Of a stretch of DNA of 32,458 nucleotides, positions 1-30,574 are shown one piece after another. The DNA comes from Bacteroidota bacterium (GTDB taxonomy: Bacteria; Bacteroidota; Bacteroidia; Bacteroidales; GCA-2711565), in contig PARP01000021.1 in the NCBI GenBank assembly GCA_002711565.1, positions 7,510 through 39,967 of the forward strand. Reading direction: 5' to 3'. How positions within the stretch are numbered: position 1 is the stretch's first letter; each line of letters opens with the position of its first letter. Made by a program: the position numbers and the translations under genes. Below the pieces are notes generated by a model, which saw only the letters and a program-made list of their open reading frames with translations, did no database searches and was not told where the DNA came from.

Positions 1-1101
1 ATCCATATACCCTTTTTGTACTGGGAATGGAGGACGGTTTCTTGGCTCACCGCGTTTACCTTCACAAGATTCGATCAATGCAGATTCCTCACCACAAACG
101 TAAGCTCCTGCACCGAATTGAATTCTGATATCGAAATCAAAACCTGCTTTACCAGCGATGTCTTTACCTAACATATTCGCTTTTCTCATTTCAGCTAATA
201 CGTTTTCTAGATATGCTTGTAAGTATCTGTACTCAGCACGTAAGTAAAGAATACCTTCTTTTGCTTCAATTGCATAACCTGCAACAGCCATACCTTCGAA
301 TAACAATTCTGGTAATTCAGTTAATAAAACTCTTTCTTTAAATGTACCTGGCTCACCTTCATCAGCGTTACAAAGAACGTAGCGAGTGCCTTCAGACTGG
401 CGGCAGAATTGCCATTTTAAACCGGTAGGGAAACCAGCACCACCACGGCCGCGTACATATGAATCTTTAACGATTTCAACAACTTCGTCAGGGTTCATAC
501 CACCAACTTTCTTAAGAGCAGCGCCTTTCTCATACTCAGAGAATAAAACTTCGCCTTTCTTACGAATGTTATTGAATACCATTGATTTGATCAATTCTGA
601 TCCATTTTTACCATCACCCATCTCAGTAACCATCTCAGCAGCTTTCTTGCCAGCTTTAATGTTAGAAACGATCTCTTTTACTTTTACAGGTGTAAGGTTA
701 GTGAATACAACATCATTGATGATCGCTGCAGGCTCTTGGTCGCTCATACCAATACATGCAGTGTAGTGTAACCCGATCTTACCATCTTCGGTTACCTCAC
801 CAAATTTCACTCCAGCCTCTTCCTCAAAAGCTTTAGCTACCTCAGCACATCCCATCATTTCTGATACTGCACTGTTGTTAAGGTAAACTGCATATTCTCC
901 AACTGGTTTGTCAGTATAGAAATGGTAGAAAGAACGTGTTTGCTCTACATCTACCTGCGACAAACCTGTTCCTTCTGCGACAACCTCAACAGCTTCACTA
1001 GGTATAAAACCATACTCAGCCTGAATATCAGTAAGGATATCCATTAACCTGGTTTTATCATTATTGTATTTCTCAATAATGTTTTTTACAGTAGTTTTCA
1101 T
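1..1101 (-). CDS. hoxF: HoxF-like NAD-linked [NiFe]-hydrogenase diaphorase subunit (NuoE-NuoF fusion), 3' end cut by window edge
   Basis: Translating the minus strand from the ATG at 1101 gives 367 open codons that run off the left edge. Residues ~1-135 resemble NuoE and ~165 onward NuoF. Visible NuoF motifs are the FMN-binding loop GRGGAGFPTGLKW (218-230), NADEGEPGTFKER (245-257) and the NADH-site stretch GAGAYVCGEESALIE (330-344). The segment YLRAEYRYL (286-294) and the NuoE-NuoF fusion order fit HoxF of bidirectional group 3d hydrogenases, which oxidises or reduces NAD(H) for the HoxYH module in the cytoplasm. The NuoE-like part keeps only one clear cysteine (C116) at the expected [2Fe-2S] ligand sites, as I recall for HoxF. 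The nearby hyp genes support a [NiFe] enzyme. The missing C-terminus should carry the [4Fe-4S] ligands, and hoxU/Y/H would lie beyond the left edge. A plain NuoF of complex I is less likely because of the fused degenerate NuoE domain. Confidence 0.88.
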   Translation of the reverse strand, partial: MKTTVKNIIEKYNNDKTRLMDILTDIQAEYGFIPSEAVEVVAEGTGLSQVDVEQTRSFYHFYTDKPVGEYAVYLNNSAVSEMMGCAEVAKAFEEEAGVKFGEVTEDGKIGLHYTACIGMSDQEPAAIINDVVFTNLTPVKVKEIVSNIKAGKKAAEMVTEMGDGKNGSELIKSMVFNNIRKKGEVLFSEYEKGAALKKVGGMNPDEVVEIVKDSYVRGRGGAGFPTGLKWQFCRQSEGTRYVLCNADEGEPGTFKERVLLTELPELLFEGMAVAGYAIEAKEGILYLRAEYRYLQAYLENVLAEMRKANMLGKDIAGKAGFDFDIRIQFGAGAYVCGEESALIESCEGKRGEPRNRPPFPVQKGYMD

Positions 1102-1148: not shown

Positions 1149-1166
1149 TTGTTAAAGTTTTAACAA
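1149..1166. promoter_or_regulatory. Rex operator upstream of hoxF
   Basis: TTGTTAA-AGTT-TTAACAA is a perfect 7-4-7 inverted repeat matching the Rex consensus known from several phyla (TTGTTAA/TTGTGAA half-sites separated by four bases). It lies 48 bp upstream of the hoxF start and begins three bases downstream of a hoxF -7 element, so bound Rex would cover the predicted transcription start. Rex leaves such sites when NADH rises relative to NAD+. A rex gene lies immediately upstream on the same strand. Confidence 0.85.
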
Positions 1167-1169
1167 AAG

Positions 1170-1177
1170 CAAAAATA
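1170..1177 (-). promoter_or_regulatory. hoxF promoter -7 element
   Basis: On the minus strand the sequence is TATTTTTG, an exact match to the Bacteroidota -7 consensus TAnnTTTG. The start of transcription would fall at about 1163-1165, inside the Rex operator. No clean -33 TTTG is present; an AT-rich TTTTAT lies at about the right distance. Confidence 0.6.
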
Positions 1178-1271
1178 AATGTTTTTGTTACATATAAAAG
1201 TTGGTAATATATATTTAGAAATGATTTAAATAAAATGACTTCTAAATAAGAACACAAGCCTTTGTTTATCA

Positions 1272-1363: not shown

Positions 1364-1981
1364 TTACTTATTTTTTACAAAATATGCCATCTCTTCGAGG
1401 GTGGTAATTATGTCAAATTCTTTAAGATAAATTGACTTAGGTAAGTCCAAATGAACAGATGAAAAATTCAAGATACCTTCAACCCCTGAACCTAACAAAA
1501 TATCAGCAATTGAGGTAGCAAATTCTGATGGAACTGCAATAATTCCGATCGTAATTCCTTTTTGCGGTACAACTTCAGTAACTTTGCTTATATCATAACA
1601 TTCAACATCTGAGAATTTCTTTCCGATCTTATGTGTATCGATATCAAAAACTGCAGCAACTTTCAAGTTCATTTCCTGATCAGCCACATAATTCATGATC
1701 GCTTGTCCCAATCTACCAGCACCTACGATCGCCACTTTTTGTAAACCTTCACTATCAATGATCTCTCCGATTAGATTGTTTAGTTCATTTACATTGTAAC
1801 CTTTACGATGATTCCCTGCCGAACCGATCAACATCAGATCACGTCGAACCTGAACAGGATTCAGATTTAACAATCGCGCTAGATCATGCGAATAGATATA
1901 TGGTTCCGACAAATAACGATATTTGTATAATAATCTGCGGTAACGACTTAATCGTTGAACTGTTTTCTTTGGAAGTTTCAT
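1364..1981 (-). CDS. rex: Rex, NADH-sensing transcriptional repressor (first copy)
   Basis: This 205-residue protein is full length for Rex. Residues ~1-75 are the winged-helix DNA-binding domain (KTVQRLSRYRRLLYKY, then VQVRRDLMLIG). Residues ~80-205 are a Rossmann fold with the NADH-binding motif VGAGRLGQAI and a following FDID acidic strand end. Rex represses fermentative and respiratory genes when NADH/NAD+ is low. The gene reads toward hoxF (262 bp away) and is divergent from hypF (131 bp between starts). No Rex operator was found in its own promoter region, unlike the second rex at 17255. Clear family assignment; the regulated genes are inferred from position and operators. Confidence 0.93.
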   Translation of the reverse strand: MKLPKKTVQRLSRYRRLLYKYRYLSEPYIYSHDLARLLNLNPVQVRRDLMLIGSAGNHRKGYNVNELNNLIGEIIDSEGLQKVAIVGAGRLGQAIMNYVADQEMNLKVAAVFDIDTHKIGKKFSDVECYDISKVTEVVPQKGITIGIIAVPSEFATSIADILLGSGVEGILNFSSVHLDLPKSIYLKEFDIITTLEEMAYFVKNK

Positions 1982-2112: not shown

Positions 2113-4389
2113 ATGAGTAAGAGTAGTGAAAGCGTTAACAACCGAATTCATGTTAAGGGCTTAGTTCAAGGTGTAGGTTTTAGACCTTTCATCTATCGAC
2201 TAGCTATTAGATTCGGTTTATTGGGATGGGTTGAGAACAGAAATGATGGTGTATTCATTAAAGTTGAGGGTAGTCAAGAAACGATCAATGACTTTATAGA
2301 CGCAATTAGAAATGAAGCTCCTCAAGCTTCAAATGTTGTATCTATAGACACTCAAAATATTACATTGGAGAATTTCACCGAATTCAGCATCATTAAAAGT
2401 GAGAACACTTCTGATGATGTAACTGATGTAAGTCCTGATATTTGTGTTTGTAATGAATGCATTGATGACCTAAAAACTCAAGATCATCGAATAGATTATC
2501 CATTTATCAACTGCACAAATTGTGGTCCTCGCTTTACCATCATAAAAGATCTTCCTTACGATAGAGGAATGACCACAATGGCTCCTTTTATAATGTGCGA
2601 GCAATGCAATTCAGAATATACTGAAATTCTGGATCGAAGATTCCATGCACAACCTGTTGCCTGTAATACTTGCGGTCCGATCTATTCACTACATCAAAAT
2701 GGAAGTAAAACTGAAGACTTTCAAGAAGTTGTTAAAGAATGTGCTTCACTTCTAGATGATGGTAAACTCGTTGCAATGAAAGGAATGGGTGGTTATCATT
2801 TAGCCTGTAACGCAGTAGATGAAGAAGCAGTTAAGAAATTACGAATTGCTAAGAATCGTGATGGAAAACCATTTGCCATCATGGCGCGAAATCTCAATTC
2901 ATTAAAAACTTATGTAGCAATTAATATTGAAGAGGAAAATCATCTTACATCTTGGCAAAGACCTATAGTTCTGCTTAAGGATTTGAAAAAATTAGCTCCT
3001 AGCGTAAGTGTTGGTTTTGAGAGTACAGGTGCAATGCTTCCATATATGCCATTTCATTTTTTACTTTTTGAAAAAATGAAAACTGATGTAATTGTATTAA
3101 CCAGTGGAAACATCTCAGATGAACCGATCATCATAGACAATAAAAAAGCAATTGATGAACTTGGATCTTTCTGCGATGCCGTATTGACTTACAACAGAGA
3201 TATTCATAATAGAACAGATGATTCAGCTTCATTTGTAACCAATAATAAAGGCAGACTTATCCGAAGATCAAGAGGCTTCACTCCTACTCCTACCCGATTA
3301 AACCAGAATGTTGATGGCATCTTTGCTGCAGGAGCAGAATTAGTGAATTGCTTCTGTGTTGGGAAAGGACAACAAGCTATATTAAGTCAACATATTGGTG
3401 ATCTTAAAAACCTTGAGACTCTAGAATTCTATTCTGAATCTGCAGAAAGATTTAAGCATTTATTCAGAGTTAAGCCTGAATTGGCTGTATATGATATGCA
3501 CCCGGATTATCTTTCTACTAAATATGCTAAATCGCTAAATATTCCAGGAGTTGCAGTTCAACATCATCATGCACATATTGCATCCTGCATGGCTGAACAT
3601 CAACTAGATGAAAAGGTGATCGGCATTGCTTTAGACGGAGTTGGATATGGTGATGATGGCAAAATCTGGGGAGGTGAGTTTTTCGTTTGCGACTTAGCTG
3701 ATTACGACAGAGTAACATACTTTGATTATGCAAAAATGCCGGGAGGTGATAAGGCAACTAAACATCCTTGGAGAATGGCGCTTTCGTATCTTCATAAAGT
3801 TTATGGTAAGTCAGTACGTGATTATTTAGAATTGGATTTCCTGAAAGATGTGCCTGAATTTGAGATCAATCTGATTTTGGATATGCTCGAGAAGAACATC
3901 AACACTCCACTTACTAGCAGTACCGGTCGATTATTCGACGCAATGAGTGCTTTACTTAACATCTGTACTAAAGCTAGTTTCCATGCAGAAGCACCGATGC
4001 GACTGGAAGCGGAATGTCTTGCTGATCTGGATGATCACTTTGAATATGACATCCAAGAATCTATATGCTTAGATGCTATGTTTGAGGAAGTTGTGATGAG
4101 TCTAAATAAGGGAATTGATCGCAGAATACTAGCAACAAAATTCCATAACACTATAATTAATATTATTTTTGCATTCGCGAAGAAAATGAGAGCCGAAAGA
4201 GGTCTTGATAAAGTTGTTTTATCCGGAGGTAGTTTCCAGAATCGATATATTTTGGAACGCACTGAGAATCTATTGATTGAGAATGGTTTTAAAGTATATT
4301 CTCACTTAGAAACTCCGGCGAATGATGGAAGTCTATCACTCGGCCAATTAGTAATAGCTGCGAAGAAAAGAGAATTAGGACAAATCTAA
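2113..4389 (+). CDS. hypF: HypF carbamoyltransferase for hydrogenase CN ligand synthesis
   Basis: The 758-residue protein has the full HypF layout. The acylphosphatase domain (~10-98) carries VQGVGFRPF with catalytic R24 and a GWVENRNDG loop. Two zinc-finger pairs follow, with cysteines 113/116, 134/137, 162/165 and 184/187. A Sua5/YrdC-like domain spans ~205-385 (KGMGGYHLACNA), and a Kae1-like domain spans ~400-750 with the metal-site stretch QHHHAHIASCMAEH. HypF uses carbamoyl phosphate and ATP to load a carbamoyl group onto the C-terminal cysteine of HypE, the precursor of the cyanide ligands on the [NiFe] iron. It is first in a hypF-C-D-E operon, with hypC starting 13 bases after its stop. 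Nothing looks damaged. Confidence 0.97.
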   Translation: MSKSSESVNNRIHVKGLVQGVGFRPFIYRLAIRFGLLGWVENRNDGVFIKVEGSQETINDFIDAIRNEAPQASNVVSIDTQNITLENFTEFSIIKSENTSDDVTDVSPDICVCNECIDDLKTQDHRIDYPFINCTNCGPRFTIIKDLPYDRGMTTMAPFIMCEQCNSEYTEILDRRFHAQPVACNTCGPIYSLHQNGSKTEDFQEVVKECASLLDDGKLVAMKGMGGYHLACNAVDEEAVKKLRIAKNRDGKPFAIMARNLNSLKTYVAINIEEENHLTSWQRPIVLLKDLKKLAPSVSVGFESTGAMLPYMPFHFLLFEKMKTDVIVLTSGNISDEPIIIDNKKAIDELGSFCDAVLTYNRDIHNRTDDSASFVTNNKGRLIRRSRGFTPTPTRLNQNVDGIFAAGAELVNCFCVGKGQQAILSQHIGDLKNLETLEFYSESAERFKHLFRVKPELAVYDMHPDYLSTKYAKSLNIPGVAVQHHHAHIASCMAEHQLDEKVIGIALDGVGYGDDGKIWGGEFFVCDLADYDRVTYFDYAKMPGGDKATKHPWRMALSYLHKVYGKSVRDYLELDFLKDVPEFEINLILDMLEKNINTPLTSSTGRLFDAMSALLNICTKASFHAEAPMRLEAECLADLDDHFEYDIQESICLDAMFEEVVMSLNKGIDRRILATKFHNTIINIIFAFAKKMRAERGLDKVVLSGGSFQNRYILERTENLLIENGFKVYSHLETPANDGSLSLGQLVIAAKKRELGQI

Positions 4390-4401: not shown

Positions 4402-4665
4402 ATGTGTTTAAGTATACCTGCTAAAGTAGAAAGCATTAATGAAGAAATGGCTACAGTTTCCGTAGGAGGAACTGAGTATGAAGCAAGTTTACAAATGGTT
4501 GATGACGTAAAAGTTGGCGATTATGTTTTATTACATACCGGCTTTGCGATCCAGAAAATCAGTGAAGAAGAAGCGATCGAAACACTCAAAGTATATGAAG
4601 AGTTCGATGACTTCAATAAGAAACTTGATGAAGAAGAAAAGGAAAGCGGTCAGCGTATCGTTTAA
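4402..4665 (+). CDS. hypC: HypC/HupF hydrogenase maturation chaperone
   Basis: An 87-residue acidic protein beginning MCLSIPAKV, the invariant N-terminal signature of HypC in which Cys2 (after Met removal the first residue) binds the Fe(CN)2CO intermediate and HypD. The rest is the small HypC beta-barrel (VSVGGTEYEASLQMV, VGDYVLLHTGFAIQKI) plus a charged helical tail. It carries the iron moiety from the HypCD complex to the hydrogenase large subunit. It is the second gene of the hypFCDE operon and usual in size. Confidence 0.96.
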   Translation: MCLSIPAKVESINEEMATVSVGGTEYEASLQMVDDVKVGDYVLLHTGFAIQKISEEEAIETLKVYEEFDDFNKKLDEEEKESGQRIV

Positions 4666-4698: not shown

Positions 4699-5781
4699 AT
4701 GAAATATATTGATGAATATAGAGACAGAGAGCTCGTACTTGAGCTTATTGAGCAGATAAAGAAAGCATCAACAAAAAATATAACTTTAATGGAGGTATGT
4801 GGTGGCCACACCATGTCGATCCAGAAGTTCGGCATCCCTGCCCTACTTCCCGAAAACATCAACCTAATTTCAGGGCCTGGGTGTCCGGTTTGTGTTTCCA
4901 GCAGAAAATATATCGATCAGGCAGTGGCTTATGCTCGACTTGATGATGTAATTATTACCACTTATGGTGACCTCATCAGAATTCCGGGCTCTACATCTTC
5001 TCTTGATCAGGAAAAAGCCAATGGTGCTGATGTAAGGATCGTTTATTCAGTATTAGATGCACTTAAAATTGCAGAAGAGAATAAAGATAAAAAAGTTGTT
5101 TTCTTAGGAATTGGATTTGAAACAACGGCTCCAAGTAGTGCAGTTGGAGTACTAAATGCACATAAAATGGGACTTGAAAATTTCTTCCTATTCAGTTCTC
5201 ACAAAATCATGCCACCTGCTATGGCAGCATTGATCGACGAAGGAGTTCAAATTGATGGATACATTGCTCCAGGCCATGTAAGCACGATCACGGGGGCTGG
5301 CATATATAAAGATGTAGCTGAGATCTATAAACTAGGTTGTGTTATTTCTGGATTCGAACCAGTTGATCTATTAAGATCGATCTTAATGCTTGTGAGGCAA
5401 CTTGAGAAGAATGAACCTAAGGTTGAAATCGAATATACTCGAGTTGTAAAACCTGAAGGGAATGTAAAAGCCCAGCAAATGCTGGAAGAAGTATTCGTAC
5501 TTGAAGATGATTGGTGGAGAGGCCTTGGAATTCTTCCAAAAAGTGGAATGAAGATCCGCGATAAATACAAACAATTCGATGCTGAAGCCATGATCGAGGT
5601 GGAAGTTGAAAAAACGAAAGAAGATAAAGGTTGTATTTGTGGCGAGATCCTTAAAGGACAAAAAAATCCTAAAGATTGTAAATTATTCGGCAAAGTTTGC
5701 TCACCAAGTGATCCTGTTGGAGCTTGTATGGTTTCTCATGAAGGAGCTTGTAATGCCCATTATCGTTTTAACAGAAATTAG
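4699..5781 (+). CDS. hypD: HypD, Fe(CN)2CO assembly scaffold
   Basis: The 360-residue protein starts MKYIDEYRD, as HypD usually does. Conserved motifs are the CGGHT loop (C34), the GPGCPVC motif (C62, C65), GIGFETTAP and GFEPVDLL. A C-terminal region with several cysteines (CICGE, KDCKLFG, VCSPSDPVGACMVS, GACNAHYRF) holds the ligands of the [4Fe-4S] cluster. HypD with HypC assembles the iron, two cyanides and carbon monoxide. All key residues are present. The 33-bp gap from hypC and 9-bp gap to hypE fit one transcript. Confidence 0.96.
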   Translation: MKYIDEYRDRELVLELIEQIKKASTKNITLMEVCGGHTMSIQKFGIPALLPENINLISGPGCPVCVSSRKYIDQAVAYARLDDVIITTYGDLIRIPGSTSSLDQEKANGADVRIVYSVLDALKIAEENKDKKVVFLGIGFETTAPSSAVGVLNAHKMGLENFFLFSSHKIMPPAMAALIDEGVQIDGYIAPGHVSTITGAGIYKDVAEIYKLGCVISGFEPVDLLRSILMLVRQLEKNEPKVEIEYTRVVKPEGNVKAQQMLEEVFVLEDDWWRGLGILPKSGMKIRDKYKQFDAEAMIEVEVEKTKEDKGCICGEILKGQKNPKDCKLFGKVCSPSDPVGACMVSHEGACNAHYRFNRN

Positions 5782-5790
5782 ATACTATAA

Positions 5791-6807
5791 ATGAAGACAA
5801 AACAAGTTTTATTGGGACATGGAAGTGGTGGTGAGCTTTCACACGATTTGATCAAAAATCTCTTCGTAAAATATTTTGACAACCCAATTCTTCGAAAACA
5901 AACCGACTCAGCATTACTCGAATTAAAAGCTGAAAATTTAGCTTATACAACTGATTCTTATGTTGTAGATCCAATCTTTTTCCCGGGTGGAAATATTGGA
6001 AAAATTGCAATTGCAGGGACTGTTAATGATCTCGCTGTAAGTGGTGCAAAACCTTTATACTTAAGTGTAGGCTTTATCATTGAAGAAGGAATGCTAATTA
6101 GTGAACTGGAAGAGATCGTTAAAACAATGGCTGAAGAAGCAAACAAAGCTGGTGTGATGATCGTGACAGGAGACACAAAAGTGGTAAACAGAGGAAAAGC
6201 TGATAAAGTTTTTATCAATACTTCCGGAATTGGAGTTCTTGAGAAAGATCAGATCGATATTAGTACCGGTGAGAATGTTAAAGTTGGCGATAAGATCATT
6301 GTTAATGGAAGCATTGCAGATCATGGTGTTACTATTATTAGTGAAAGGAATGAACTAAATCTCAGAGCTGATGTTAAATCAGATTGCGCTTGTTTGAATC
6401 ACTTGATCCAAAAAGTAAAAGACAGTGGATCTCAGATCAAATTTATGAGAGATGCTACCAGAGGTGGATTAGCAACTGTTCTTACAGAATTAGTTGATGA
6501 ACGTGAATATGGACTTGAAATAGATGAGTTAAATCTTGTGGTGAATGAGAATGTTCGTGGTATGTGCGAACTACTTGGATTCGACCCATTATATGTTGCC
6601 AATGAAGGTAAAGTTCTAATGGTTGTTGCGGCAGAAGATGCTGATAAAGTTCTTGAGATCATGCATGCAGATGAACTTGGGGAAAAAGCAGCAATTATCG
6701 GAGAGATAGTTGATGAACATCATGGTAAAGGATGGGTTACAACTCAGATCGGCGGTAAGCGAATTATTGATATGCTTGCAGGCGAACAATTGCCTAGGAT
6801 CTGTTAA
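5791..6807 (+). CDS. hypE: HypE, carbamoyl dehydratase (cyanide ligand donor)
   Basis: This 338-residue protein belongs to the PurM/ThiL/SelD-like ATP-binding family. It opens with LGHGSGGELSHDLI and contains DSYVVDPIFFPGGNIG, GTVNDLAVSGAKP, TGDTKVV and MRDATRGGLATVL. It ends exactly in PRIC, the conserved C-terminal tail whose cysteine (C338) is carbamoylated by HypF and dehydrated with ATP to thiocyanate. It is the last gene of hypFCDE, followed after ~50 bp by a hairpin terminator. Sequence and length are those of a working enzyme. Confidence 0.96.
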   Translation: MKTKQVLLGHGSGGELSHDLIKNLFVKYFDNPILRKQTDSALLELKAENLAYTTDSYVVDPIFFPGGNIGKIAIAGTVNDLAVSGAKPLYLSVGFIIEEGMLISELEEIVKTMAEEANKAGVMIVTGDTKVVNRGKADKVFINTSGIGVLEKDQIDISTGENVKVGDKIIVNGSIADHGVTIISERNELNLRADVKSDCACLNHLIQKVKDSGSQIKFMRDATRGGLATVLTELVDEREYGLEIDELNLVVNENVRGMCELLGFDPLYVANEGKVLMVVAAEDADKVLEIMHADELGEKAAIIGEIVDEHHGKGWVTTQIGGKRIIDMLAGEQLPRIC

Positions 6808-15880: not shown

Positions 15881-16222
15881 ATGCATGAATTATCAATCGC
15901 AACGAATATTGTAGAGATCGTTGAAGAGGAAATCACAAAGGCAAATGCTAAAGAAGCTACAGAAATTGTTCTGGAGATCGGAAGTATGTCAGGCGTGATC
16001 GTTGAGGCTCTGGAATTTGCGATGGATGAAGCCATAAAGAATACACGCTTACAAAAAGCAAATCGAAGTATCGTTGAACTTCAGGCTGAGGCTCATTGCA
16101 CGAAATGTCAGAATAAATTCGAGGTTGATGATTTCTTTGCTGTTTGTCCGAAATGTGGCAGTTTTGAAACAGATATAATAAAAGGTAAAGAATTAAAAAT
16201 TAAGACTTTAAAGCTTAATTAA
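15881..16222 (+). CDS. hypA: HypA nickel-insertion metallochaperone
   Basis: A 113-residue protein of usual HypA length. It starts MHELSIATNIVEIV, where His2 binds nickel. The zinc site has two pairs, C73/C76 (CTKC) and C89/C92 (CPKC). HypA works with the GTPase HypB to deliver nickel to the hydrogenase large subunit after the iron part is made. hypB follows 14 bases after its stop. It lies ~9 kb from hypFCDE, with unrelated genes between, so it is a separate transcription unit with its own promoter. Confidence 0.96.
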   Translation: MHELSIATNIVEIVEEEITKANAKEATEIVLEIGSMSGVIVEALEFAMDEAIKNTRLQKANRSIVELQAEAHCTKCQNKFEVDDFFAVCPKCGSFETDIIKGKELKIKTLKLN

Positions 16223-16236
16223 AGGAAAGGAATATT

Positions 16237-17067
16237 ATGTGTGGAACTTGTGGTTGCGTAGACGACTCTGTACAAATTAGAAAACCGGGTGAATCAGGAC
16301 ATTCTCATTCTCATTCACATGACGGACATCATCACACTCACGAACATCATCATGAACATGGACATGATCACGATCATGAGCATGCGCATGACCATCACCA
16401 TCATAACGAGCACTCAAAAGAGCTACAATTAGAGATCGATGTTTTAAATAAAAACAATTTACTGGCTGAAAGAAACCGCGGTTATTTTGAAGCAAAAAAT
16501 ATCACTGCTTTAAATCTTGTAAGTTCACCAGGTTCAGGTAAAACCAGCTTACTGGAAAGAACCATCAAAGAAATGGGTTCTGAATTACCATTCTCTGTAA
16601 TTGAAGGTGATCAACAAACCATGAATGATGCTGAGCGTATTGAGAAAGCAGGAGCTCCTGTTGTACAAGTAAATACAGGTAGTGGATGCCATCTTGATGC
16701 CGAGATGATCAATAAAGCGGTTAAGAAATTAGAACTTAAAGGAGATAACGTTCTCATTATTGAAAACGTAGGAAATCTAGTTTGTCCTTCTATGTTCGAT
16801 CTTGGTGAATCTAAAAGAGTAGTAGTGATCAGTGTTACTGAAGGTGAAGATAAACCCATCAAATATCCATATATGTTCAACTCATCAGATATTTGTATCA
16901 TTAACAAAATTGATCTCCTACCTTACCTCGATTTTGATGTTGAGAAATGTAAAGAATATGCATTGAAAGTAAATCACCATTTAAAATTCTTTGAGCTGTC
17001 TGTAAAGTCAGGTGAAGGCATGGAACAATGGTATGAGTGGTTAAAAGATTCAATTAAAACCACTTAA
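16237..17067 (+). CDS. hypB: HypB nickel-binding GTPase
   Basis: The 276-residue product starts with the CxxCGC nickel site (C2, C5, C7). A histidine-rich stretch (~22-59) with 22 histidines follows, then the SIMIBI-class GTPase: Walker A SSPGSGKTSL (~96-105), EGDQQT, ENVGNLVCPSMFDLGE with the metal-site Cys, and the NKID guanine-specificity motif. It carries both a high-affinity nickel site and a large nickel store, so it could act as donor and reservoir. It pairs with HypA; together they complete the set HypA-F in this window. A strong terminator follows. Confidence 0.97.
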   Translation: MCGTCGCVDDSVQIRKPGESGHSHSHSHDGHHHTHEHHHEHGHDHDHEHAHDHHHHNEHSKELQLEIDVLNKNNLLAERNRGYFEAKNITALNLVSSPGSGKTSLLERTIKEMGSELPFSVIEGDQQTMNDAERIEKAGAPVVQVNTGSGCHLDAEMINKAVKKLELKGDNVLIIENVGNLVCPSMFDLGESKRVVVISVTEGEDKPIKYPYMFNSSDICIINKIDLLPYLDFDVEKCKEYALKVNHHLKFFELSVKSGEGMEQWYEWLKDSIKTT

Positions 17068-17158: not shown

Positions 17159-17176
17159 TTGTTAAATAATTAACAA
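17159..17176. promoter_or_regulatory. Rex operator upstream of the second rex
   Basis: TTGTTAA-ATAA-TTAACAA is a perfect inverted repeat, with the same half-sites as the hoxF operator. It ends four bases before the -33 element of the second rex promoter, so bound Rex could block RNA polymerase. This indicates autoregulation or cross-regulation between the two Rex proteins. Confidence 0.85.
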
Positions 17177-17212: not shown

Positions 17213-17254
17213 CTAGCCTTAGATCTAATTTACCTAAAACCCGCATTAGTTTTA

Positions 17255-17881
17255 ATGAAGCATTTACCCCATAAAACGATTGAGAGACTTAGTCAGTATC
17301 GTCGAGCCTTATTGATCTGCGCTTCCAAAGGAAAAACGCACATCTTCTCTCATGAAATTGCTAAAATTCAGCATATTACGCCAGTGCAGGTTCGACGAGA
17401 CATTATGCTTATCGGTTATACCGGTACCTTACGTAAAGGATATAATGTACAAGAACTGATCGACCTTATTGGTGATATTCTGGACACGCATGAAGGACTG
17501 AATGTTGCTGTTGTAGGGATTGGTAATCTTGGTCATGCAATGATCAATTATTTCAACGGAAAACGTACGAAATTATCTATCGTTGCGGCATTTGACAGCA
17601 ATCCTGATAAAGTCGACAGAATTTTCTCAGGAGTAAAATGTCATCATATCGACCAATTACCGGAAATCGTTAAAAACGAAAAGATCTCCATAGGAATTAT
17701 TACAGTACCTGCAGGTTCTGCTCCAGAAGTGAGCGAAAAACTTGTAAATGCAGGTGTTAAAGGAATATTAAATTACACTCCAAAACCTGTAAATGTTCCT
17801 AAACATATTTACCTTGAAGAGTATGATATGATCACCTCATTAGAAAAAGTTGCATTCTTCGTAAAAACACACGGAGAATAA
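17255..17881 (+). CDS. rex: Rex, NADH-sensing transcriptional repressor (second copy)
   Basis: The start at 17255 gives 208 residues and the usual Rex opening (MKHLPHKTIERLSQYRRALL). The frame is open back to 17210, but that ATG lies inside the -7 element. The winged helix spans ~1-75 (HITPVQVRRDIMLIGYTG), and the Rossmann domain follows with VGIGNLGHAMINYF and FDSNPDK. It is clearly related to, but well diverged from, the copy at 1364-1981, so this is not a recent duplication. A perfect Rex operator lies upstream of its promoter. It stands alone between two terminators, next to hypAB. Confidence 0.93.
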   Translation: MKHLPHKTIERLSQYRRALLICASKGKTHIFSHEIAKIQHITPVQVRRDIMLIGYTGTLRKGYNVQELIDLIGDILDTHEGLNVAVVGIGNLGHAMINYFNGKRTKLSIVAAFDSNPDKVDRIFSGVKCHHIDQLPEIVKNEKISIGIITVPAGSAPEVSEKLVNAGVKGILNYTPKPVNVPKHIYLEEYDMITSLEKVAFFVKTHGE

Positions 17882-19478: not shown

Positions 19479-20342
19479 ATGCGACAAATTCTTCGTTTAA
19501 GCACCTCAAAACAAAGCCTTAGCATTTTACTGGGTCTCACTGTTTTTTTCCTTGTTTTAACATTTGGAAAGCTTGATGATGGCAATCCACGTGTTACATA
19601 CACCCTCGCAATTGCATTATTGATGGCTATTTGGTGGGTTACTGAAGCAGTACCATTGGCAGTAACCTCATTAATTCCGGTTGCATTATTCCCATTACTC
19701 GGCATCATGAATGGCAAAGATGTGTCTTCAACCTATTTTAACCATGTCATCTTTCTGTTTATTGGAGGATTTATCGTTGCCATTGCCATGCAGAAATGGG
19801 ATCTACACAAAAGAATAGCCCTAAAGATCCTAATGTTCACAGGTTTAAGTCCTGCACGTATTATGCTGGGCTTTATGCTTGCCGCAGGATTTCTCTCCAT
19901 GTGGATCTCAAATACAGCAACATGCATGATGATGGTCCCTATTTTATTATCGATCATGTCGAAACTAGAAGATAAAATCGACAAAGAAGTTGTACAAAAA
20001 TACTCTATCGGATTGCTATTAGGCGTTGCACATGGTGCATCTATTGGAGGTATAGCTACACTAGTTGGAACGCCTCCGAATCTATCATTTGCAAGAATAT
20101 TTCAGGTAATGTTCCCGGAAGCACCGGAGATCTCATTTGCTCAATGGCTATTTTTCGCATTTCCAATTGCCGTGGTCATATTTATATTCTGTGTTGTTTA
20201 TCTATACTATGTATATAAACCAAAGAAAAACACATGGAATGAGATCGACAAATCTACATTTAGACGTGAATATGAAGAGCTTGCACCAGTAACTTACGAG
20301 CAAAGGATCAAAGGATCATCTTCATCAACTTTATCGCTTTAG
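19479..20342 (+). pseudogene. SLC13/DASS-family anion:Na+ symporter, N-terminal part (frameshifted)
   Basis: Residues 1-280 of a divalent anion:sodium symporter (dicarboxylate or sulfate carriers). Hydrophobic segments follow one another from ~18, including ITVTEAVPLAVTSL-type text (WWVTEAVPLAVTSLIPVALF) and the first SNT substrate/sodium motif, SNTATCMMMVPI, then GIATLVGTPPNLSF. After EQRIKG the frame runs into SSSSTLSL and a TAG at 20340. The lost frame continues at 20315 and gives the rest of the transporter. The cause is a tandem duplication of eight bases. As it stands this piece would make only the first half and is unlikely to transport. The substrate cannot be named from the sequence. 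Confidence 0.85.
20302..20317 (+). repeat. 8-bp tandem duplication causing the transporter frameshift
   Basis: AAAGGATC occurs twice end to end (20302-20309 and 20310-20317). Removing one copy gives GAG CAA AGG ATC ATC TTC and restores one continuous frame (EQRIIFINFIALAF) through the whole transporter. The duplication is therefore the lesion itself and could be reversed by slippage or recombination. Confidence 0.85.
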
Positions 20343-21016
20343 CATTTTTATGGCTTTTCAGATCGAATATCAATATTGGAGATTTTGTTATTCCGGGTTG
20401 GTCTAACCTATTTAATAACCCGGAATATATTAATGATGGTACAGTAGGAGTTATCATGGGTATAATATTATTTATGATTCCGGCCAAGGACAAAAAGCTC
20501 AAGTTTATTTTGAATCTGGATGCCATAGCGAAAATCCCATGGCATATTGTTCTACTTTTCGGAGGTGGATTTGCATTGGCGAGTGGATTTAAGGAATCAG
20601 GATTATCAGAATGGTTCGGTTATCAATTACAATGGGTTGTTAGTATTCATCCAATTCTGGTGATGCTGGTAATTTGTTTAGTAATGACTTTCCTAACCGA
20701 ACTCACATCCAATACAGCAACGACGGAAATGTTATTACCGATACTTGCCGGATTATCCGTAAGTGTTCAGATCAATCCACTTTTGTTCATGCTACCTGCA
20801 ACACTCTCAGCTTCAATGGCATTTATGTTGCCAGTAGCCACTCCTCCAAATGCAATAATTTTTGGAACAAATAGATTAACAGTCATGCAAATGGCTAAAA
20901 CCGGTTTCATTTTAAATATTTTTGGAGCAATTGTAATAACTCTTGCGACTTACTTCTTTAGTGAAATCGTATTTGGTTTTGATATGCAATTATTCCCTGA
21001 TTGGGCAAAACATTAA
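20315..21016 (+). pseudogene. SLC13/DASS-family symporter, C-terminal part (out of frame with its N-terminal half)
   Basis: From 20315 the displaced frame reads IIFINFIALAFLWLFRSN and continues to TAA at 21014-21016; the first in-frame ATG is at 20456. It contains the second inverted half of a DASS carrier: FGGGFALASGFKESGLSEWFG, the second SNT motif SNTATTEMLLPIL, and MLPVATPPNAIIFGTNRL with the conserved PPNA loop. With the 8-bp repeat collapsed to one copy, the combined protein would be ~509 residues, a normal size. There is no other damage, so the break looks recent. The next gene starts one base after its stop. Confidence 0.8.
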
Positions 21017-27484: not shown

Positions 27485-29917
27485 ATGAATATTCGACGAA
27501 TCATACTATTATTGTTATTCCTAATTATAGGGCAAGTCATTTTTGCCTCAGAAACCTTTGAGTTGATACAATTGATCCATGAAAAGAATCATTTTGAGGA
27601 TTCGTTTTATAAAAAAGAAACCCAGAAACTCTTAACTCAGATCAAAAGGTCTGACCTATCTCTTAAAGAAAAGATCCACAGTCATTTAGCATTATCTTAT
27701 CTAATGCTCAAGATCGGAAACCTCAATGCAAGTAAGATGCATTTAGCGATCAGTGAGGATCTTTCAAAAGACCTTAAAAGTAATATTCAGATTGAAATCT
27801 GCATTATACATTTACATGCATTACATAAGTTCGAAGAGTTAGAATACATCGAAGCCTTAGATCTATCTGAGATGGCAATCCAGAATTCATTAAACAGAGG
27901 TCACTCAGACACACTCATTATGCTTAATGCTTATCGGAATAAAATGAATTGCTTAATGAAACTGGACAGATATCAGGAAGCTATTAATGAAGGATACCAA
28001 TCTCTTAATTACGTTCTCTTTAATAAAAGTTCGTTTTATCCAACGATAGGATTATTGTATAGTTTAATTGGAGAAGCTAACTATAAAGTGAACAATCTAG
28101 TGTTAGCGAAAAAATACCTCTATGAATCTTACTCTTATTTTGATAGGAACAAAGATATCTCGATCATCGCACACAATTACTTATACCTGGCTCTTTGCTT
28201 TAAGGAATACGGTGAAAACAAATTATATTTTGAATACATAAAACAAGCATTTTATTTATTCTCAAAAACGAAGCAGTCATTTGAGTTCTATGGGGAACTG
28301 CATCATGAGTTTGGTGAAGCTTACCATAATCTGAACCTCATCGATTCAGCAGATCTATACTACAAATCAGCCTTGGCAATAGCTGAAAAAGTAAAGTCAG
28401 AAGATCAGATCATAAAAACCAAGTTAAAACTCGCCGAATTATATCTAAATATTGGAAACCTTAAGGCAGTAAAATCAGAATTAGAGGAAATATTTAAACT
28501 TACTAGCGACCCACAGTTCAAAGGCATTGCACATCGATTTGCTGCAAGGTATTATATTGAGATTGAATATTATGAAAGCTGTTTAACGCATTTAAATTCT
28601 GCATTAGAAATTCTAGGTAAGAATAGTAGAAAGCATGATAAAAATGTTGCCGAATGTTATTTCATTCTCAGTAAATACTATTATGAAAAAGGTCAGATCC
28701 AAGAGGCGCTTAATCAAATCCAGAAAGCACTAATAGCAAGCACCATTCATTTTAAAGACACCCAATTAAACTTCAATCCTAAATATACGGATGGAGGATC
28801 TCCATTGATCTTAAGTGAATATTTACGTTGGAAAGCTGAACTATTGAATCATATAATAGTAGTGTCAAACGATCCGGATAAAAAGCATTTACTAAGTATT
28901 CAAAGAGAAACCATCATTGAGGCAATAGAAGCAGGGAATTACATTAAAAGCTCTTATGTGAACTTAGAAGATAAGTTTTTAATATCTGATAATAACAGAG
29001 CTAATTATAAGATCCTTTTGGAGAATACTCTTCAACTTAATAAGTTAAGTTTAGATTCAAAATATATTGATTCCGGATTTGAATTGACTCAGAAAAGTAA
29101 GAGTGGGATATTGACGGATCTAATGATCGATGCAAAGATTGGTGAGAATCATCTGAAAATGGACTCGCTTCTAAAAGAAGAATCTCTACTAGACCGTCGC
29201 ATTAGGGCCTTGGAATTGAGTTTAAATAATACCATCAAGACAGGCACAAGTTTAGAGATCGATTCTTTGGAAAATGAGATCTCCATCAATACAGAAAAGC
29301 TATATCAAATTCGCACAAATATCATTCTTGAAAGCAATCAATCTATTGTTCTTAAAAACTTATTGGAAAACAACTTAACAAATAATGTAAGAGATCGCTT
29401 ACAGCTCAATCAAGTTGTGATCGAATATTTTTTATTTGAAGATTTATTATACATAATTGCAATTGATAAATATAGTTCGAACATTTATAAGCAGGCGATA
29501 AGCCCATATATACTGAATGCTGTGCATGAGATCGTTCAGTATGCCAGTAAACCTTTAACGAAGTCTTCAAAGATCGATCATTCGGATTTCATGCAAGACG
29601 CAATTTATCTATACAATGTCTTGATCAAACCACTGGAATCTTTCATCCAAGATAAAGAATTGATAATAATCCCAGATAATTTGTTATATAGCTTACCTTT
29701 TGAAATACTAATTAAGGATTTGGAATTCGAGAACACAGATCTACACTATTTGATAAAGTCCAATCCTATAAGTTATGCTTATTCCTCATCGCTAATGTTA
29801 AATAATAGTGAAGCAGGTAAAGATTCTAAAAGCATATTAACCTTTGCACCTTTTAGTAAAGAGATCAAATCTGATGCAAATTTAAAGCAAGAAAATATTA
29901 AGGTATTAGAACATTAG
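27485..29917 (+). pseudogene. Exported TPR-CHAT protein, N-terminal part, ending at an internal TAG
   Basis: The 810 codons include a signal peptide (~1-21, IIGQVIFAS), helical TPR-like repeats (~50-430, for example SYLMLKIGNLNASKMHLAIS and LAELYLNIGNLKAVKSELEE), a helical linker with QKSKSGILTDL and a coiled stretch (~545-625), and the front half of a CHAT (caspase-like) domain from ~640 (VVIEYFLFEDLLYIIAID, LIIIPDNLLYSLPFEILI). The frame stops at TAG 29915-29917, then stays open for another 218 codons holding the CHAT catalytic residues. Unless read through, the product lacks protease activity. A related protein is encoded directly after it. The role of such exported CHAT proteins is not established. 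Confidence 0.85.
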
Positions 29918-30574
29918 ATTCATGAGATCGAAATCATAAAAGATCATTTTGAGAGCAAATCATTTAAAGGTAAACGAGCAAGTCTGGAGAATTTCTTATT
30001 ACACCTTGAAAACTATGACATCGTTCACCTTGCTACACATGCAGAATTAAATCCAAATAATCCAAATTACTCAAAGATCCTTTTCTATCCTGAAGATGGT
30101 AAATCCAGCCTAAATGCAAATGATATTTATGACCTGAGATTGAATACAGATATGATGGTACTTAGTGCATGTAATACAGGAGCAGGAGAGATCAGAAAAG
30201 GAGAAGGATTGATGAGTTTTGCGCGGGCACTTACTTTTGCCGGCTGTAAGAGCTTGGTTTTAACGCAATGGACAGTGGAAGATAAATCCAGTGAAAGCTT
30301 AATGAACTTCTTCTATGAATATTTATCCTATGGCTATTCAAAAAGCAAAGCTCTACAATTAGCAAAAATCAAATATCTGGAACAAGCGGAACCTCTTGAA
30401 AGTCATCCTTTTTATTGGGCAGGATATATTGTAATTGGTGATGATAGTCCATTGATCCGTAAGCATGGATTGAACAAAATTAAAAAGGAAATCGCTTATG
30501 TACTCACTGCATTTTTAATAGCACTAATAATCCTAATAATTATAAGCAGTAAGAAAAAACCCGCGAAAGCTTAG
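29918..30574 (+). pseudogene. TPR-CHAT protein, C-terminal catalytic part after the internal TAG
   Basis: This stretch continues the same frame as 27485-29917. It contains the CHAT catalytic histidine (VHLATHAELNP) and cysteine (LSACNTGAGEIRKGEG), then SLVLTQWTVEDKSSESLM and HPFYWAGYIVIGD, all well kept. It ends with one hydrophobic segment (~AYVLTAFLIALIILIIISS) and a basic tail KKKPAKA, which suits an inner-membrane anchor with the CHAT domain in the periplasm. The first in-frame ATG (30140) falls after the catalytic His, so separate translation would give a dead fragment. The sound coding state suggests a very recent stop, or read-through. Confidence 0.8.

Follow-up and report, generated by a model that had tools for sequence, protein, structure and literature searches.

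The hoxF promoter described here is best explained as a whole as a Rex-repressed promoter that is released by NADH and takes a second input, a reading to which we give a probability of roughly 0.85. It lies near one end of the stretch of DNA that was analysed (the window, 32,458 nucleotides, G000:C2:7510-39967), which is part of a 72%-complete genome of the order Bacteroidales with an assembly of 2.07 Mb. The features concerned are:

1 to 1101, minus strand: hoxF, a NuoE-NuoF type diaphorase subunit (Pfam 2Fe-2S_thioredx and Complex1_51K)
1149 to 1166: Rex operator of hoxF, a palindrome TTGTTAA-N4-TTAACAA with AGTT as spacer (exact match; conserved before hoxF in Bacteroidales)
1165, minus strand: predicted hoxF transcription start
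1170 to 1177, minus strand: -7 box of hoxF, of the form TAnnTTTG (exact; conserved in aligned promoters)
1213 to 1231, minus strand: second box ATTTAAATCATTTCTAAAT, a putative activator site (from aligned hoxF promoters)
1364 to 1981, minus strand: rex1, a hox-linked Rex paralog (NCBIfam NF003995, 202.8 bits; tree)
2113 to 4389, plus strand: hypF, hydrogenase maturation (TIGR00143)
4402 to 4665, plus strand: hypC-like small ORF of 87 aa (named only from its start, MCLSIP, and its position)
4699 to 6807, plus strand: hypD and hypE (ORFs with homologs beside hypF in relatives; names from sequence)
15881 to 17067, plus strand: hypA and hypB (TIGR00100, TIGR00073)
17159 to 17176: Rex operator TTGTTAAATAATTAACAA before rex2 (exact match; in a similar place before rex2 orthologs in relatives)
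17249 to 17881, plus strand: rex2, the widespread Bacteroidales Rex (NCBIfam NF003995, 201.1 bits; tree)

Although hoxF is cut by the window edge, the whole gene (598 aa, a NuoE-NuoF fusion) is present when the remaining contig (L016) is included, as is the full operon hoxFUYHW, whose last gene encodes a HoxW-type protease. The genes hoxF, U, Y and H occur together and HoxH is nearest to NAD-reducing enzymes, with the NAD-reducing hydrogenase 5XF9 as its best PDB match (E = 4e-159). Because 5XF9 is the nearest solved protein, we assign the hoxFUYHW product by homology as a group 3d-type NAD-linked [NiFe]-hydrogenase. The maturation genes hypF, C, D and E are oriented opposite to rex1 and hoxF, with hypA, hypB and rex2 further along. 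Rex control of the hyp genes was considered for the source genome and rejected, as no well-placed operator precedes them; a site with two mismatches (2124-2141) falls within hypF, and in a relative (G216) no such site is seen before rex1. Elsewhere in the window a TPR-CHAT-like protein (27485-30574) seems to be broken into two ORFs (27485-29917 and 30140-30574), after which comes another TPR protein, from 30633 on, and the frame of an anion/citrate-type transporter (19479-21016) is likewise split into two ORFs, possibly by a frameshift.

The first-pass annotation had described an exact TTGTTAA-N4-TTAACAA repeat three bases behind an exact TAnnTTTG element, with a rex gene as the next gene upstream of hoxF. 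Each part of this description holds: TTGTTAAAGTTTTAACAA is found without mismatch at 1149-1166, TATTTTTG stands three bases before it at 1177-1170 on the minus strand, and rex1 lies on the same strand as hoxF with 262 bp between them. The promoter region therefore contains an exact 18-bp inverted repeat of the TTGTTAA type, one of the two forms, with TTGTGAA, by which Rex operators are recognised. Exact matches number 2 in the window against ∼0.0013 expected, the second being the one upstream of rex2, and 4 in the whole assembly against ∼0.08 expected; this rarity, together with the conservation of the site, led us to reject a chance origin. The annotation had further placed the operator on the predicted hoxF transcription start, and this fits as a prediction: the Flavobacterium TAnnTTTG box spans -12 to -5 (PMC9723704), and projecting that position onto 1177-1170 would put the start at 1165 and the operator at -1 to +17.

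By itself TAnnTTTG is uninformative, as the window holds 41 copies against 40 expected from shuffles, and the -7 box gains its value from a spacing to the operator that is conserved across other genomes. Among 30 operator sites with at most two mismatches, box and operator are separated by 2 nt at 13 sites and by 3 nt at another 3, so that 16 aligned hoxF promoters, the window's own included, have a gap of 2 or 3; more loosely, TAnnTTTG falls within -3 to 7 nt of the operator in 24 of the 30. Upstream of it the -33 element of the window's promoter is poor, with no TTTG near that position, and the aligned hoxF promoters are rich in T from -35 to -33 and carry T or G at -32. A -33 element that is weak or not found has been described for some Bacteroidota (PMC7366714). 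With its exact and conserved TAnnTTTG box, the hoxF promoter would be of the sigma-ABfr type, its start covered by the Rex operator.

A search of 295 Bacteroidales genomes for HoxF supplied the hox neighbourhoods for comparison, and 49 hox genomes were screened for rex with NF003995. An operator was counted if it lay within 200 nt of hoxF with at most two mismatches, a cut-off chosen once the sites had first been seen, and the count omits genomes in which rex directly precedes hoxF and one that has no upstream sequence. On this basis, of the 30 genomes carrying rex 26 have the operator before hoxF, as against 2 of the 12 that lack rex (Fisher p = 3.5e-5; 0.3 and 0.2, respectively, expected from shuffling). 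Relatives in this test are not independent; the comparison by family gives 15/18 with rex and 2/7 without, families being counted by hand and the p-value being only 0.017. The exceptions comprise four genomes with rex whose sites have three mismatches (G110, G146, G179 and G118) and two without detected rex that have a site (G250, which is 78% complete, and G150, where the site is weak). In one rex-less family (f84) the -7 box is retained as TAATTTTG-CA and is followed in register by a degraded operator, for example TTGTTTTTTAAAAT in G083. Two families in which rex directly precedes hoxF (f44 and f15) have no such operator before hoxF. The sites before rex in these two families resemble TTGTTA-N6-TAACAA (L090 upstream of rex, L099 and L080) and may represent an operator variant belonging to a divergent clade of Rex.

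Scanned across related genomes, then, the operator holds the same place before hoxF in many Bacteroidales families, tracks rex and stays behind the -7 box, and the annotated reading of a Rex-controlled hoxF promoter is supported at the level of sequence. The same behaviour bears on whether another regulator, of the Crp/Fnr type, reads the palindrome and its likeness to a Rex operator is incidental. Crp-like regulator genes do adjoin two Rex-type sites, one in the source genome (L005, by Pfam) and one in a relative (L153 in G103, by sequence), but the site follows the presence of rex, also stands before rex2, and occurs with one mismatch in G075, a genome where no Crp-type regulator with PF13545 was found; we regard this reading as highly improbable. 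Recognition by Rex is thus the preferred explanation of the palindrome, and since the operator is kept with rex and mostly absent without it, the enzyme is probably made when NADH builds up.

The genome encodes two Rex proteins, both well above the curated NF003995 cut-off of 126. In the tree, rex2 belongs to a well-supported group of orthologs and rex1 to a small group of hox-linked copies; linkage to hox was gained or lost repeatedly. In many genomes rex2 orthologs are preceded by an operator, often ∼80-120 nt before the start, and rex2 is likely autoregulated. Both proteins have the GxGxxG NAD site and keep most of the residues named as touching DNA in the recognition helix and wing of Thermotoga maritima Rex (PMC8836258), namely Q44, R46, R47, G56, G61 and Y62 in our alignment, where R47 corresponds to Lys49 of the T. 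maritima protein. Rex1 and Rex2 have Arg in place of the Gln found in Rex of T. ethanolicus, a protein with a similar TTGTTA operator, and the TTGTTAA specificity is therefore not explained residue by residue.

In a rival reading Rex1 would be a dedicated local regulator and rex2 would have no action on hoxF. In its favour, rex1 adjoins hoxF in several families and is intact in five genomes (G000, G216, G114, G103 and G098). Against this, in three relatives where both operator and rex2 persist, only a relic of rex1 is left beside hoxF: 39 codons with a stop in G117 (L062 8595-8711), the first 49 and last 17 codons joined by deletion of the middle in G203 (L068 8758-8951), and the C-terminal half in G202 (L074 8476-8808). 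In G102, G075 and others that keep operator and rex2, no rex1 was found beside hoxF at all. The recognition cores of the two proteins are moreover almost the same, PVQVRRD(L/I)MLIG, and we consider exclusive control by Rex1 unlikely. Rex2 is probably the main regulator of hoxF and the adjacent rex1 dispensable: as rex1 has decayed in relatives that retain the operator and rex2, rex2 appears sufficient there. Where rex1 is intact its product may share the hoxF site, which the near-identity of the recognition cores makes probable.

Beyond hoxF and rex2, further Rex sites precede acs, an acyl-CoA dehydrogenase gene, an aldehyde:ferredoxin oxidoreductase gene, malic enzyme-pta, and HMGL-like lyase and enoyl-CoA hydratase genes, and those at acs and acyl-CoA dehydrogenase recur in relatives. 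Genome-wide, 8 one-mismatch sites were found against ∼3 expected, so a few of them may be chance. One (L012 1501-1518) lies between an enoyl-CoA hydratase gene and a ThiF-like gene, which is followed by a radical-SAM-looking ORF resembling HydE (L170 4438-5538, putative). The set of sites fits a regulon for fermentative electron disposal and speaks for H2 evolution without proving it. Group 3d hydrogenases are reversible, and the formation of H2 from NADH is uphill unless H2 is kept low. These properties would also suit a Rex-controlled enzyme that is mainly an H2-uptake, NAD+-reducing hydrogenase. In such a model, however, induction by NADH would make a positive loop, and the genome's other Rex sites precede fermentative and electron-disposal genes; the uptake reading seems doubtful to us.

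In the mechanism that we favour, a Rex dimer with NAD+ would occupy the palindrome, roughly from -1 to +17, and block initiation of hoxFUYHW. By analogy with the Rex family, a rise in the NADH/NAD+ ratio would cause NADH-bound Rex to let go and the NAD-linked hydrogenase to be made, and judging from the enzyme type the hydrogenase would then most likely serve to shed surplus reductant as H2.

A second conserved element emerged once the hoxF promoters had been lined up by their -7 boxes: ATTTRWA-N4-TTCTAAAT, a near-palindrome of 9-1-9 architecture and 19 bp that is centred ∼57 nt before the predicted start. TTCTAAAT starts 41-44 nt before the -7 box in 17 of 35 genomes from 11 families, rex-less ones included, against a shuffling expectation of ∼0.0015 per promoter in that place. 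The whole pattern has 85 exact copies against 4 for its reversed form in 18 genomes, picked largely for carrying the box in their hoxF promoter, and TAnnTTTG boxes are concentrated 30-39 nt away from the pattern, to either side. The genes that follow it often have redox functions; besides hoxF, they encode aldehyde:ferredoxin and 2-oxoacid:ferredoxin oxidoreductases, Acs, an RseC-like protein (as first gene), NrfH, AhpC, a Sco1-like protein, a ferredoxin and a molybdopterin oxidoreductase, names read from the sequence and mostly without a profile test.

The box is likely an activator site, and its conservation suggests a second input beside Rex that acts through another regulator, probably an activator bound near -57. 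Whether this amounts to a two-input promoter in which a global Bacteroidales regulator binds the 19-bp box and activates a redox and energy regulon (hox, acs, the 2-oxoacid and aldehyde:ferredoxin oxidoreductases, nrfH, ahpC, sco1-like and ferredoxin genes) seems to us an even bet. A Crp/Fnr protein with PF13545 is unlikely to own the box, as G075 has the box and no PF13545 match. Fur is another candidate: a Fur-like gene is present in 9 of 9 genomes tested, and no clear box was seen before that gene in the nine.

In the literature searched, which is incomplete, we found neither a report of Rex control of Bacteroidales hydrogenases nor a published Rex regulon for the order. The present case extends Rex control, as predicted from the operator, to an NAD-linked [NiFe]-hydrogenase across an order whose members are largely uncultured, makes a Rex regulon legible for these Bacteroidales, and offers natural comparisons in which rex is lost and the operator decays or rex1 decays and the operator is kept; the second box makes its Bacteroidales redox regulator directly searchable. 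Ravcheev et al. (2012) reportedly described Rex control of hydrogenases in T. maritima and gave TTGTTAA as the clostridial motif.

Cyanobacterial hoxEFUYH encodes the same enzyme class, and its promoter also responds to redox or oxygen cues; the regulators given for it are cyAbrB2, cyAbrB1, LexA and SigE, and Rex is not mentioned (PMC11368403). Rex control of hydrogenases is already known in Firmicutes: in Caldicellulosiruptor bescii Rex controls the Ech [NiFe] and Hyd [FeFe] hydrogenases, as supported by gel shifts, and rex is autoregulated (PMC6391272), as rex2 apparently is here, and in Thermoanaerobacterium saccharolyticum Rex sites are predicted at ech-hyp, hfs and hydG (PMC5886521). The likeness extends to the placing of a Rex operator before hydrogenase operons and to its sequence, the T. 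saccharolyticum sites, such as TTGTTAATAAATTAACTA, being of the same TTGTTAA type. What is new here is the Bacteroidales hox case and its probable second input: in contrast to both Firmicutes systems, the predicted target is an NAD-linked group 3d-type hox operon in another phylum, behind a sigma-ABfr-type promoter with a second upstream box.
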